DNA from: a virus
Direction: 5' to 3' (one strand)
IMG/VR virus record: IMGVR_UViG_3300025030_000302
Span: 1-34,032 of that record
Length of the DNA stretch: 34,032 nt
Below, in pieces: positions 1,405-15,847 of the stretch. The notes under the pieces were generated by a model. The model was not told the origin of the DNA and did not search any database. It saw only the letters and a list, made by a program, of their open reading frames with translations. The position numbers and the translations under genes were made by a program. Every line of letters starts with the position of its first letter. The stretch's first letter is position 1.

Positions 1405-1424
1405 ATCGAAAACACCGATTTTTC

Positions 1425-1589
1425 ACGCACAGCTTTAATTATCCAAAGCTGTGCGTAAAGCTGTGCGCATGCAATTATGACAAGGCCTTTCGTATGTGTA
1501 AGCAATATCGAAGTTTTTGGCATGCGCCTTAATAATTAAGCAAAATTGAAAGCTGTGCGTGATTTTTCAAGTTGACAGTGCGTGAAAAA
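1425..1589. promoter_or_regulatory. Repeated operator array of the immunity region
   Basis: The 12-base motif AAAGCTGTGCGT occurs at 1445-1456 and 1549-1560 (+), in reverse complement at 1425-1436, and with one change at 1457-1468. A degenerate copy (CAGTGCGTGAAAAAT) lies at 1576-1590 inside the spacer of the early promoter. Copies at 1445 and 1457 are in direct tandem with a 12-bp period. An extended form, with GA and A/T-rich bases after the motif, is shared by the copies at 1425 and 1549. They sit between the divergent repressor gene and early operon, so they are best read as binding sites of the repressor. Confidence 0.75.
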
Positions 1590-8854: not shown

Positions 8855-8861
8855 AAGCGAA

Positions 8862-8901
8862 ACCCCGGCCAAACCGGGGTCATCGGCGGGTGGTTCCGCC
8901 G
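8862..8901 (+). other. Tandem stem-loops between two small genes
   Basis: ACCCCGG (8862-8868) pairs with CCGGGGT (8874-8880) around a 5-base loop, and CGGCGG (8884-8889) pairs with CCGCCG (8896-8901). No U-tract follows, so they are unlikely to be efficient intrinsic terminators. They may stabilise or attenuate the operon mRNA ahead of the gene at 8934. Confidence 0.45.
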
Positions 8902-8933
8902 GTCTGATGAGCAGCCAGCAAATGGAGACAGCC

Positions 8934-11535: not shown

Positions 11536-11565
11536 TTGACAAATAACAAACTTCCGGGCTACCTT
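11536..11565 (+). promoter_or_regulatory. Promoter of the C4/antirepressor locus
   Basis: TTGACA (11536-11541) is a perfect -35 box. After 18 bases comes TACCTT (11560-11565), a poor but usable -10 box. Transcription would start near 11572 and read a short structured leader, a terminator, the C4-like RNA and then the antirepressor gene. In P1, C4 and ant share one transcript, which fits. Confidence 0.55.
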
Positions 11566-11572
11566 ATCCACA

Positions 11573-11657
11573 CAGCCGAAAAAAAACGGCTGCACGGGAT
11601 TGGCGTCCCGGAATTCGAGGCGGATACGCCGCCTGCTTCTGCTTCGGCGTTTTTTTT
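11573..11657 (+). ncRNA. Short terminated leader RNA carrying copies of the C4 target motifs
   Basis: Between the promoter and a strong terminator lies a predicted RNA of about 85 bases. It folds as CAGCCG-A8-CGGCTG (11573-11592), CGGGA-TTGGCG-TCCCG (11595-11610), then the terminator stem. TTGGCGT (11600-11606) and TCGAGG (11615-11620) repeat, in the same order, the two segments of the ant leader (11782-11788 and 11817-11823) that pair with the C4 RNA. It may be a decoy for C4, or simply the 5' part of the same transcript. Existence as a separate RNA is inferred. Confidence 0.4.
11626..11657 (+). terminator. Intrinsic terminator upstream of the C4-like RNA
   Basis: ACGCCG (11626-11631) pairs with CGGCGT (11645-11650), and eight T residues run from 11650 to 11657. 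It would end early/middle transcription coming from mor and also the transcript begun at the promoter at 11536. Read-through would be needed to reach C4 and ant, unless a further start lies in 11658-11701. Confidence 0.7.
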
Positions 11658-11701
11658 ATGCCCGCAGAACGGCAGAGTATCAGCATACCAGACGCGCTTT
11701 T

Positions 11702-11783
11702 GGGCGGGTCTGGCAGGGAGCCGCAAGGCTCGCCGGTTCCTCGATCCGGTACGCCAACCTGTCAGATCCGCCCTTTTTGTTTT
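11702..11783 (+). ncRNA. C4-type antisense RNA controlling the antirepressor
   Basis: A 16-bp closing stem is formed by 11702-11717 and 11758-11773 with only two G-U pairs. Inside are a GAGCC-GCAA-GGCTC hairpin (11718-11731) and a CCGG hairpin with a 9-base loop (11733-11749). A U-rich run follows (11774-11783). The loop segment TCCTCGA (11738-11744) is complementary to TCGAGGA at 11817-11823, which covers the ant Shine-Dalgarno sequence. The unpaired ACGCCAA (11751-11757) is complementary to TTGGCGT at 11782-11788. This two-site (a', b') design is that of phage P1/P7 C4 RNA, which blocks ant translation. The downstream AntA-family gene confirms the context. Confidence 0.82.
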
Positions 11784-11831
11784 GGCGTCAGAAGGGGCGG
11801 TAACTCTCACTCTCATTCGAGGAGCATGACC

Positions 11832-12419
11832 ATGAAAGAGCTTATCCGCATCACTCCCCACCAGATCGGTAAACACGAAACCAAAACCTGTTCGGCCCGC
11901 GAGCTGCACGAATTTCTCCAGATCGGCAGGGACTTTGCCACCTGGATCAATGCCCGGATAGAAGAGTTCGGCTACAAGCAGGGCAAGGACTATGAGATTT
12001 TCCCCCAATCGGGGGAAAATAACCTGGTCGGCCGGCCGAAGATGGAATACAGCATCACCATCCATATGGCCAGTGAGCTCTCCATGGTCGAGCGCAACGC
12101 CATGGGCCGGATAGCCCGCAACTATTTCATCAAGTGCGAGGCCATGGCCGTCGAGCAGGTGCCGCTCCTGACCAAGGCGCTGCTCGATAGGACGCCCCTC
12201 TGGAAAAAGATAGTCAAATGGAAAGAGATGGGGCACAGTAATGTCGAGATCGCCCGCCTGTGCTGCGTCGACGCCTCCACGGTCAGAAAGCACCTGCGGA
12301 CCATCGAGCGCCTCGGCATCCTCGCCCCTCCGGATGACCTGGCCAGACGCCAGGAAATCGCCAAGGCCTTCACCGTCAGACGCCCCATGCTGCCGGGAAT
12401 GGAGGGCGACCATGAGTAA
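11832..12419 (+). CDS. AntA/AntB-type antirepressor
   Basis: This 195-residue protein starts at ATG 11832, 7 bases after GAGGAG; the ATG at 11826 is too close. Residues about 15-85 are the AntA N-terminal domain (CSARELHEFLQIGRDFATWINARIEEFGY..GKDYE, then RPKMEYSITIHMASELSMVERNAMGRIARNYFIKCE). Residues about 115-160 form an HTH (VKWKEMGHSNVEIARLCCVDASTVRKHLRTIERLG). In P1-type systems Ant inactivates the prophage repressor by protein contact, inducing lysis. Here the likely target is the repressor at 1009-1404. Translation should be blocked by the C4 RNA just upstream. Confidence 0.88.
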   Translation: MKELIRITPHQIGKHETKTCSARELHEFLQIGRDFATWINARIEEFGYKQGKDYEIFPQSGENNLVGRPKMEYSITIHMASELSMVERNAMGRIARNYFIKCEAMAVEQVPLLTKALLDRTPLWKKIVKWKEMGHSNVEIARLCCVDASTVRKHLRTIERLGILAPPDDLARRQEIAKAFTVRRPMLPGMEGDHE

Positions 12420-12645
12420 GATGACTGTCGAAATGACCCGTGAAGAACACCGGCTGTTCGAATGCTGCCAGCAGTTGATGTCGATCGCCGACCTCGCCCA
12501 ATCGGATCCAGAACAGGCCCTGGCCACCGTGGTCGACCTGCATGTGCCGGAAGCGGCGACGCAGCTGCGCGGCGCGGTAGTCAATATGGCGGCAGGTTTA
12601 TGCAAGATCCACGATGAATGGGGAGGGACGCCATGCCAAGGATAA
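12412..12645 (+). CDS. Small helical protein after the antirepressor
   Basis: This 77-residue acidic helical protein starts at ATG 12412 (GGAGGG upstream) and overlaps the end of ant by 8 bases. It has three Cys and no recognised domain. The overlap implies coupling, so it would be under the same C4 control. Confidence 0.6.
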   Translation: MSKMTVEMTREEHRLFECCQQLMSIADLAQSDPEQALATVVDLHVPEAATQLRGAVVNMAAGLCKIHDEWGGTPCQG

Positions 12646-13024: not shown

Positions 13025-13384
13025 ATGCTAAACGATAAAATTGGTGTGCCAACTGGCCACATAGGAACCGGCAGCGCCCTGCTGCTTGTCGACAAGGTGC
13101 CGATCCCGGCAGCCGGGGTAAGACCATCCGATCCCATCAACACGATGATGGTCGGCAAGATTGGCATCGATATCAGATCCAGCCAGAACTGCACGGTCAA
13201 GCTGGTCCGCCTGCCGGACGGGGTGACCCCGGGCGAAGAATCGGATATCGGCTCCGTTGCTGCCGGCACGCCGGCCTTTTTTCTGTACACCAGCCTGCTC
13301 TGCCCAGCGGTAAAGATCGTGGTGACAAACTCCGGCAGCCAGGACATGACCGTCTTTGAAATGTACGTGCGCGGAGGGGCGTGA
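13025..13384 (+). CDS. Unknown beta-rich protein, probably virion-associated
   Basis: This 119-residue protein starts at ATG 13025 after AAGGGAG. The sequence is rich in Gly, Val and Thr with alternating beta-like segments (VGKIGIDIRSSQNCTVKLVRLPDG, VKIVVTNSGSQDMTVFEMYVRG), so it is probably a beta-sandwich. Coupled by a TGATG overlap to the large fibre-like gene, it is likely a partner, chaperone or base for it. No family is named. Confidence 0.6.
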   Translation: MLNDKIGVPTGHIGTGSALLLVDKVPIPAAGVRPSDPINTMMVGKIGIDIRSSQNCTVKLVRLPDGVTPGEESDIGSVAAGTPAFFLYTSLLCPAVKIVVTNSGSQDMTVFEMYVRGGA

Positions 13385-15495
13385 TGGAACTGATAGCGCC
13401 GGCGAAAAACCTGCAGAAGTTGAGCGTGCGGGCGATCGAGGAGCTTTTTCCCGAGCTGCACGGCTGGGGGCGCGCGGTCGATCTGAATGAGAGCGGAATA
13501 CCTGGCGATCAGATCGCCGTGTGGCTGTTAAAAAATGGAGTGCTGCAGCCAGATAATATCGGCGAATCAAGCATCCTCTACCAGTCCGGCAACGCCTCAA
13601 CCTGGGCGACTACGGCTGTATGGGGATTTGAGCGTAATGCCGTAACCATCGCCATTGATACTGCTCTCGGCGGTGGAGTTTTGTTCATTGGCGAGACTCC
13701 ACGCTACCTGACCTGGGCGGCGTGGATGAACATGGCCGCCATCAACGTCGATTATCTGTTTGTCGGGGTAAAAGGCATTGCCGGATACTCGACCGATCAG
13801 ACAGCGAGCGCTACGAAAATAAGGAAATATCTGAACTCAGTTGATCAAGAATTGTTCATTTCCGATATCTTCAACGGCCTCGACACTAACGGCTTTACCT
13901 TCGCAAATCCTCCGGTTGCCATTGACCAAGACGGCAAACTACGGGTATCTCCTGCCGGTGTGCTGGCTATTTCTGGTGGGTTTTGTGCTGATGAGATTGC
14001 AGAGGGAGCTACTCTCGGGCCTGAGTTGGCGGTCGGCGATTGGACATTTTCAGGCCCATCTGGGAGTGGGGTAAATGGTAATGTAACTATAGACTCTTCA
14101 ATTTCTGCTGGTAATGTAAATATCAGTTTAGCTCTCCTTGATGCTTCCTATATTAGGAGTCTAATTAAGGCAGAAATTACTATAGTTGAATTACCAGGGT
14201 CTACTGGCGACGGCATTAGATTTGACTCTATTAGCCCGAACAGTACGGCATTAAAAGCAGGTACTTATACATTTGAAGCCCCCTGTGATCACCCTTCAAT
14301 CGTTTTTTATGCATTCATTGGATTTAAAGGCAATGTAACTATATCTGTAAAAAAGGTCATCCCAGTATGGCAAGAACGCACTCCAGCACCCACGAAGAAA
14401 ACCATCCGCACCCTGACAGGCTCAAAAACAGTCTACGCCGACATCGATCCAACCATATGGCGCAGGGCGAAAATAGAGCCGACGAGGACGAACAAGTGTA
14501 TCTGCCGGAAGATCAATCCTGTAGGTACGACGAATATCTCTAATAGCGGAGATGCTGCTGCTGTATTATCAGTGGTGGACGATTCAACTGCTCTCGCCGC
14601 CGCTGGACTGGATAAGGTATGCACGAGTGGAAAGGTTTATAAACTGGATAACAGTGCGGGCATTGCGGCAGCGTTTGCTTTCTCTGATGGCAGCACTGGC
14701 AATACCAATAAACATAGCGTATTTGTCTTTGTGCGCGTATCAGGCGGGACAGCTACACTGCAAGGCATGGGCAATCCACCGACGCCAAATACCAGCTCAT
14801 CATCTTATATCCAGCTTAAAGCGGAAAATATAACTCCGGCAGGCACAACAAATAGACTCACTATTGGTGCCTCAGCAGGGGCAGTTGTTTATTTCATACT
14901 CCCCCAACTCGAAGAAGGAGCCTTTGTAACAGCACCAATAATCACCGCCGCTGACCCTCTTGCGACCATCACCAGGACCGGAACAGCAATCACCAAGCCA
15001 ACTGCAAACGTGCTGGCAGATCAGAACATCGCTCTCTATATGCGGTTTTCGATGATGTCTGTCGGACAAGTTGCAAAACTCTGGTCAAGTTATACCGATG
15101 CGAATAATTGCCTGTGCCTGGAAACCACTGCAACTGCTCTCCTGCTTAAAAAGATCGTTGCCGGGGTGACTACATCGGTCAGCCTCTCTCACACTCACGC
15201 GGTGAACGTGCCGATTGAACTACTCGCTATCCAGTCCGATATGGGCATGGCAGCAAAGTTCCGCACCTATACGGGCGGGGCGTGGAGTGCTTGGTCTGCA
15301 TATGTCGATGATGCAACGGCGGACGGGAAAGCGGCTGCGGTAATCGCGGCAACAATGGAACTAGGGGCAGCCAATTCTACTGCCCACATGTCGGGTAACG
15401 TTCAGTTATTCGCGCCGATCCAGCTCGGCAGTCGTGCTTCCTTGGCCGATTACAAAGCCATAGCAGAGCAGGAGGTTAACAAGATAAATGCCTAA
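13384..15495 (+). CDS. Large fibre-like virion protein with carbohydrate-binding-type domains
   Basis: This 703-residue protein starts at ATG 13384 (GGAGGGG upstream). It looks modular. Residues about 1-200 contain a virion-type N-terminal region (VDLNESGIPGDQIAVWLLKNGVLQ, then a short loop-rich beta region). Residues about 209-330 resemble a CBM4/9-like jelly roll (GPELAVGDWTFSG...LKAGTYTF). Residues about 340-520 form a similar domain ending in PQLEEGAFVTAPI, and 530-690 look like a concanavalin-type (LamG-like) domain. PQLEEG-type endings are common in phage receptor-binding and adhesin proteins. Likely role: surface recognition. The stretch 14060-14380 is clearly more AT-rich, pointing to domain exchange. 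Confidence 0.65.
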   Translation: MELIAPAKNLQKLSVRAIEELFPELHGWGRAVDLNESGIPGDQIAVWLLKNGVLQPDNIGESSILYQSGNASTWATTAVWGFERNAVTIAIDTALGGGVLFIGETPRYLTWAAWMNMAAINVDYLFVGVKGIAGYSTDQTASATKIRKYLNSVDQELFISDIFNGLDTNGFTFANPPVAIDQDGKLRVSPAGVLAISGGFCADEIAEGATLGPELAVGDWTFSGPSGSGVNGNVTIDSSISAGNVNISLALLDASYIRSLIKAEITIVELPGSTGDGIRFDSISPNSTALKAGTYTFEAPCDHPSIVFYAFIGFKGNVTISVKKVIPVWQERTPAPTKKTIRTLTGSKTVYADIDPTIWRRAKIEPTRTNKCICRKINPVGTTNISNSGDAAAVLSVVDDSTALAAAGLDKVCTSGKVYKLDNSAGIAAAFAFSDGSTGNTNKHSVFVFVRVSGGTATLQGMGNPPTPNTSSSSYIQLKAENITPAGTTNRLTIGASAGAVVYFILPQLEEGAFVTAPIITAADPLATITRTGTAITKPTANVLADQNIALYMRFSMMSVGQVAKLWSSYTDANNCLCLETTATALLLKKIVAGVTTSVSLSHTHAVNVPIELLAIQSDMGMAAKFRTYTGGAWSAWSAYVDDATADGKAAAVIAATMELGAANSTAHMSGNVQLFAPIQLGSRASLADYKAIAEQEVNKINA

Positions 15496-15847
15496 TGTGT
15501 CTATAATTTTCAGGCTGAAAACAGAAGACGCTCTTGAACAAATGCGGCTTGAATGCCTGCAATTGCTCGGAGCCGGGGCGAACCGGCAGACACCCAAAAT
15601 CGTAGAGGAAACATTTGCGCTGTGCAATACTCCCCCGCAAAACGGATATGTCAGAATTGTTGCCACTCCCGATTTTGCTCAGATGCTTCAGGATGTTAAG
15701 AGCCAGGGGTATGAGTCACCATTTGCCGAATTGGTGTTGATCGAATGGGATGGTCAGACTGAGTTTGTAGTCAATGAATACGATGATCCTGAGTTTGGGC
15801 ATGTACGGGAATTGCTCGGGTACATGGCTGAGTTGCCAATTTTATGA
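15488..15847 (+). CDS. Unknown small acidic protein of the cassette
   Basis: This 119-residue protein starts at ATG 15488 with AGGAGG upstream and overlaps the end of the fibre-like gene by 8 bases. It is acidic at the C-terminus (FVVNEYDDPEFGHVRELLGYMAELP). No motif is recognised. It is coupled (ATGA) to the HExxH gene, so it may be its inhibitor, substrate or partner; that is inference. Confidence 0.6.
   Translation: MPNVSIIFRLKTEDALEQMRLECLQLLGAGANRQTPKIVEETFALCNTPPQNGYVRIVATPDFAQMLQDVKSQGYESPFAELVLIEWDGQTEFVVNEYDDPEFGHVRELLGYMAELPIL

Follow-up and report, generated by a model that had tools for sequence, protein, structure and literature searches.

Does a transposable phage, besides its own repressor, carry a second immunity control of the P1/P7 type, in which a C4 antisense RNA silences an antirepressor gene? 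The question is raised by a locus at 11536-12419 of a virus record from IMG/VR with 34,032 bases; this whole stretch of DNA is called the window here. A first-pass annotation had proposed a P1/P7-type C4/ant design at this place, combined with a separate repressor and operator array. In our analysis, the locus is best explained as a c4-ant immunity operon of the P1/P7 type that a Mu-like phage carries beside mor as an accessory cassette, and we consider this reading highly likely.

The window phage is Mu-like (transposable). According to Pfam, it encodes a Mu-type transposase A with Mu-transpos_C (PF09299/PF02316), the transposase partner B (AAA_22), a DUF3164 gene and a Mu portal (Portal_Mu, PF06074). 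The Mor-like activator scored 23.2 bits, just under the Pfam cut-off of 24.9, and is backed by a PHROG match to late activator. Because relatives of the B protein (74-88%) sit in Desulfocapsa, Desulfobulbaceae and Desulfofustis genomes or MAGs, plus one Deltaproteobacteria MAG, the hosts are probably sulfate-reducing Desulfobacterota, with Desulfobulbales likely. A putative phage repressor is encoded at 1009-1404 (−) (HTH_19/HTH_3; PHROG transcriptional repressor) and is a possible target of Ant. Between this divergent gene and the early genes, an array at 1423-1590 has 14-bp AAAGCTGTGCGTGA repeats in both orientations; those at 1423-1562 (+) are likely operators. We found no copy of the repeat near 11536, at the c4 promoter; the real operator of the repressor may differ.

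Several other features of these genomes were recorded. A type II hammerhead ribozyme (Rfam RF02276, 62.5 bits) lies in the early operon at 8855-8920 (+); it was also found in the relatives L116-L121 (with an altered core in L118-L121), in the prophage L128, and twice in L083, a Mu-like contig with C4. Two relatives have an int-alpA RNA (RF02996) close to their left end (L116, 371-439 (−); L117, 450-518 (−)). The region 13025-15847 of the window includes a 704-aa protein without a Pfam or PHROG match, and tblastn of this region against the relatives L116-L122 gave no match.

The first-pass annotation had described a multi-hairpin RNA closed by 16 bp at 11702-11783, and had named the Rfam C4 covariance model as a check. 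The search returned a C4 antisense RNA (RF01695) at 11697-11776 (+), at 55.2 bits and thus above the cut-off of 45. The structure was as described, but the 3' end had been set about 10 nt too far. The RNA folds into a 16-bp closing stem with two inner hairpins (P1, 11702-11717/11758-11773; P2, 11718-11731; P3, 11732-11750; all (+)), at −50.4 kcal/mol and z −6.7. Our own covariance model gives it 91.4 bits, a score in which the window sequence is itself one of the 8 training rows.

We collected C4 loci with a core-pattern search, which gave 114 viral contigs, 101 of them distinct, the window copy being counted among the 101; the AntA protein used as a query against viral contigs found no relative. 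Since the core pattern fixes the P3 stem and parts of the loop and linker, the invariance of P3 and part of the linker statistics arise by construction, and non-cognate controls were therefore used. With MAFFT and RNAalifold, only the invariant P3 stem was recovered from 75 C4 sequences, because the long stem has indels; the covariance model was used instead. In the alignment of 81 sequences fitted to that model, 20 of the 26 stem pairs had changed on both sides and 96.8% of the alignment cells were paired. The covariation was 0.65, versus 0.18 in shuffled and 0.04-0.08 in slid alignments. The compensatory changes that the first-pass annotation had called for are thus present among related loci, and the pairing is conserved. 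Two C4 matches were observed on each of four contigs: L112, at 1232-1321 (−) and 12093-12172 (+), and L022, L028 and L044.

Two segments of the C4 RNA face targets near ant. The b' loop, UUCCUCGAU at 11737-11745 (+), contains UCCUCGA (11738-11744), which is antisense to the ant Shine-Dalgarno region (duplex −11.7 kcal/mol). Its target b2, TCGAGGA at 11817-11823 (+), overlaps the Shine-Dalgarno sequence by direct reading. The a' linker, ACGCCAA at 11751-11757 (+), pairs with both a1 and a2 (about −10.4 kcal/mol). The segment a2 (TTGGCGT, 11782-11788) is predicted in the loop of a hairpin at 11768-11800 (+), whose 5' arm takes over the last part of the stem that closes C4, so this fold and the C4 fold are exclusive. 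A complement of at least 6 bp in the a2 hairpin was found in 60% of loci for cognate and 20% for non-cognate combinations, so the hairpin is moderately conserved. The pairings of TCCTCGA with 11817-11823 and of ACGCCAA with 11782-11788 are exactly those first claimed, and jointly they arise at a rate of about 1e-4 when the flanks are shuffled 20,000 times with their dinucleotide content kept. What the first-pass annotation overlooked were an intrinsic terminator, a promoter-like pair at 11536-11565 and upstream copies of both targets: a1 (TTGGCGT, 11600-11606), within a predicted hairpin at 11595-11610 (+), and b1 (TCGAGG, 11615-11620 (+)). The b' loop forms 6 bp with b1 and 7 bp with b2. All four pairings together were seen in none of 20,000 such shuffles.

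Then, every C4 was compared with its own flanks (cognate) and with the flanks of other loci (non-cognate) for 98 loci. The loop had a complement of at least 7 bp in the downstream Shine-Dalgarno region in 82% of cognate and 6% of non-cognate comparisons, and in the upstream flank in 69% and 4%, respectively. For the linker, the values were 87% versus 34% downstream and 97% versus 35% upstream (at least 7 bp). The Rfam match, the stem covariation and this cognate co-variation of the targets together lead us to place the RNA in the known C4 family. The segments are diverse: the 101 loci have 76 loop types and 80 loop-linker combinations. That of the window occurs once and is common to none of the 100 other C4 loci. 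The cross-immunity between lysogens that had been suggested would reach only phages with identical C4 segments.

Directly after C4, as the first-pass annotation had stated, lies ant at 11832-12419 (+), encoding an AntA-domain antirepressor-like protein of 195 aa (Pfam AntA, PF08346, 82.3 bits). The product is an anti-repressor Ant according to PHROG, and it has a weak C-terminal HTH match (HTH_38) under the cut-off. There is good support for the proposal that a Mu-like phage has a P1/P7-type C4/ant design beside a separate repressor and repeat array: the curated RNA model, the covariation, the cognate test, the AntA domain, the MuA, Mor and Portal_Mu genes, and the repressor beside its repeats all agree with it. 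Judged by its sequence, the window holds a real, intact-looking C4-ant operon, a known RNA family in a less usual type of phage. That this locus is a C4-ant unit is close to certain.

The genes that follow C4 vary. In 73 loci they included Bro-N (15), pRha (11), AntA (4) and P22_AR_N (4), as well as short frames. Five other contigs combine C4 with Mu transposase and/or Mor-type genes (L007, L053, L083, L086 and L100; the Mor match of L053 is under the cut-off), and a more distant Desulfobacterota prophage, L128, has mor, then C4, then a Bro-N gene. A C4 restricted to the window among Mu-like phages is ruled out by these five contigs and the prophage. In the closest relatives (L118-L120), mor is followed directly by the homologue of the gene at 12618, and the cassette is accessory because it is absent there. 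From these comparisons, the C4 module in transposable phages is both accessory and recurrent.

Its absence from close relatives would also be expected if a decayed or horizontally left-over C4 cassette, functionless in the window phage, were all that remained here. Such a relic would agree with b1 being one base shorter than b2, and with the window C4, in which a CCACC-like 3' end as in the P1 C4 RNA was not seen. However, nothing is missing from the structure or from the four target pairings, the AntA frame is intact, promoter and terminator are present, and in L128 C4 is likewise retained behind mor, there with another antirepressor gene. We regard decay as very improbable.

The leader upstream of C4 has a regular layout. 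A sigma-70-like promoter, TTGACA-N18-TACCTT at 11536-11565 (+), has 9/12 consensus matches and lies 64 nt before a1. A sigma-70 scan missed it because TACCTT is a poor −10 box, and we call it promoter-like on the grounds of position and homology: promoters with at least 9/12 consensus matches occur in 38 of 84 C4 leaders, versus 5.8% in shuffles. It is followed by a predicted hairpin, H1 (11573-11592 (+)), which takes the place of the first hairpin in alignments to the Rfam models isrK and c4-a1b1 (each scoring under its cut-off), then by a1 and b1, and then by an intrinsic terminator at 11626-11657 (+), formed by ACGCCG (11626-11631) and CGGCGT (11645-11650) with T8 (11650-11657). A T-run about 39 nt after a1 was found in 85 of 95 leaders, versus 4% when shuffled, and the record of phiV10 has a putative terminator marked at the matching place.

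What are a1 and b1 for? Among the papers that could be searched, we found no agreed role for these upstream targets. In the window, the last GG of b1 opens the first antiterminator segment, GGCGG (11619-11623), whose complement is CCGCC (11629-11633). Across 71 leaders, a five-base antiterminator complement lies within the 5' arm of the terminator in 89% of cognate and 2% of non-cognate cases. We estimated P(terminator), an in silico folding probability that ignores transcription kinetics. In 69 leaders, its mean rose from 0.44 to 0.82 when b1 was occupied; it was 0.44 when a1 was blocked, 0.38 with a control stretch and 0.41 with b1 minus its last two bases. The value for the window leader is 0.03 when free and 0.97 with b1 occupied. 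In P1, the overlap is kept with different bases (TGCGG with CCGCA), and P(terminator) changes from 0.66 to 0.98. C4 on b1 should force termination before C4 and ant, because b1 shares bases with the antiterminator. This b1/antiterminator switch, which may be new, is predicted by folding for most leaders, P1 included. It is not universal: for the Gifsy-1 leader, the terminator is predicted in every state, whether b1 is occupied or free.

That exception agrees with a plain P1-type unit, in which C4 blocks ant at a2/b2 alone, and a1/b1 with the terminator are either left-overs or damp expression constitutively, giving no feedback. The P1 record also labels a1/b1 as "putative" targets and a2/b2 as the sites of repression. 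Yet a1/b1 keep their complementarity to the cognate C4 in most of the 98 loci, the antiterminator covaries with the terminator arm (the 89% versus 2% above), and the predicted terminator responds to the blocking of b1 and not of adjacent stretches. A plain unit is a serious candidate, though we think it rather improbable.

A link to a known Salmonella RNA appears in the same leader. In a permissive Rfam scan, isrK (RF01394) matched 11572-11654 with 34.9 bits against a cut-off of 50 (E 5.8e-6), and c4-a1b1 (RF03163) matched 11559-11614 with 22.3 bits against a cut-off of 46.7. The window leader is therefore not filed as a member of c4-a1b1, though the a1/b1 sites are present, and with the isrK cut-off missed it can only be said to work like isrK. 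Four loci, those of phiV10, of a Klebsiella phage and of two E. coli prophages, have isrK over the cut-off directly upstream of C4, with c4-a1b1 overlapping the 5' half of isrK. In Gifsy-1, isrK (79.3 bits) is followed immediately by C4 (69 bits), and the 45-codon orf45 starts within the C4 match. When Gifsy-1 was numbered as in Hershko-Shalev et al. 2016, the bases agreed at 11 of 11 published mutated positions, and the published compensatory mutants G28:C162 and G31:C159 fall exactly on a1 x a' pairs of C4. This suggests that the Rfam isrK family is the terminated leader of C4 operons and that IsrK belongs to the same system as C4. We found no paper that makes the C4-IsrK link or proposes C4 attenuation among those that could be searched, and PMC4825925 mentions neither C4 nor P1.

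The Gifsy-1 study (PMC4825925) reported that IsrK ends at its terminator while part of the transcripts read through, and that the ~80-nt STnc1160 is processed out of the transcript. Supplying IsrK in trans gave 8-fold more transcription and 139-fold more translation. Its authors compared the locus with the P4 CI RNA, considered that STnc1160 might act in termination but then cast doubt on this, and explained their data by cis folding and orf45 translation. Start-codon mutants of orf45 lowered activation, and constitutive STnc1160 enhanced rather than relieved the IsrK-driven growth arrest (PMC4825925). Such an IsrK-type cis switch, in which a1/b1 pair with the C4 segments of the same transcript, a short terminated leader opens the fold to activate ant, and C4 does not act in trans as an RNA of its own, was proposed for Gifsy-1 by Hershko-Shalev et al. 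2016 with mutants and native gels (PMC4825925). In our folding, too, a1/b1 of a 280-nt read-through transcript are predicted to bind a'/b' of the same molecule. However, a cis switch leaves the equal conservation of a2/b2 and their overlap with the Shine-Dalgarno sequence unexplained, the ~80-nt STnc1160 in Gifsy-1 is likewise a product of processing (PMC4825925), and in P1/P7 C4 is a processed trans-acting repressor (as cited in PMC5320573). We judge it unlikely.

Under the preferred reading of a P1/P7-type operon, transcription would be driven from the promoter at 11536-11565 and enter the leader with a1/b1 and the terminator. Read-through would yield C4 RNA and ant mRNA; C4 would then be processed out of this transcript and block ant in trans, as in P1/P7. 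The a' x a2 and b' x b2 pairings would cover the Shine-Dalgarno sequence of the AntA gene, so that a lysogen would make no antirepressor. C4 very probably blocks ant translation in the window phage, and the second, RNA-based immunity layer proposed by the first-pass annotation is a fair inference. When C4 is scarce, Ant would be made and, as its family suggests, would probably counteract the repressor. With less certainty, C4 may pair with a1/b1 of the nascent leader, favour the terminator, and limit transcription of its own operon; an occupied b1 would act in this way because it shares its last two bases with the antiterminator helix. The chances for C4-dependent attenuation seem about even. 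The terminated, IsrK-like leader carries a1/b1 and could titrate C4; this sponge role is tentative, a little short of even. We hold with similar reserve, as a possible generalization, that C4 operons at large, P1 included, are RNA feedback circuits in which the isrK-family leader, acting as a sponge for C4, turns on ant. In that case, IsrK/orf45/AnrP of Gifsy-1 would be a C4 immunity system, and the mutants already published for it would amount to tests of the a1 x a' pairing.

The comparison of about 100 C4 switches gives a1/b1 a testable role, attenuation plus sponge, and ties the previously unconnected IsrK to the C4 system. It also shows that the C4 module passes from one phage type to another, with transposable phages of sulfate reducers among them; there, repressor immunity would gain a further layer based on RNA.

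Among known systems, the P1/P7 immI operon (C4-icd-ant) resembles the window in the order and spacing of promoter, a1, b1, C4, a2, b2 and gene, and likewise has a three-stem RNA, b2 at the Shine-Dalgarno sequence, and an antirepressor gene downstream. The P1 promoter P1c4 lies 60 nt before a1, versus 64 nt in the window. P1/P7 C4 is processed by RNase P to a stable RNA of ~77 nt (as cited in PMC5320573). The window differs in being a transposable phage of likely Desulfobulbales hosts, in having no icd frame, and in having no copy of the repeat operator at its c4 promoter. BLASTP shows no relation between its AntA protein and P1 Ant1, a protein with a KilAC domain. The c4-a1b1 motif (RF03163; Weinberg et al. 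2010, PMC2864571) shares with the window a first hairpin and an a1 hairpin upstream of C4; unlike the window leader, the Rfam model (53 positions) stops before the terminator. Gifsy-1 IsrK/orf45/AnrP is similar in H1, the TTGGCGT hairpin, the intrinsic terminator, the adjoining C4 and the antirepressor gene, but Gifsy-1 is lambdoid, whereas the window phage is Mu-like. The P4 CI RNA with seqA/seqC is, like C4, a processed antisense RNA with targets both upstream and downstream, and it acts by transcription termination (as cited in PMC4825925). Unlike C4, it controls replication genes, and the likeness is one of layout. In the attenuators of pT181 and pIP501, an antisense RNA blocks the antiterminator so that the terminator forms, which is the logic proposed here for C4. 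Their antisense RNA comes from the opposite strand, whereas C4 lies downstream on the same transcript and was a founding example of an antisense RNA from the same strand as its target.
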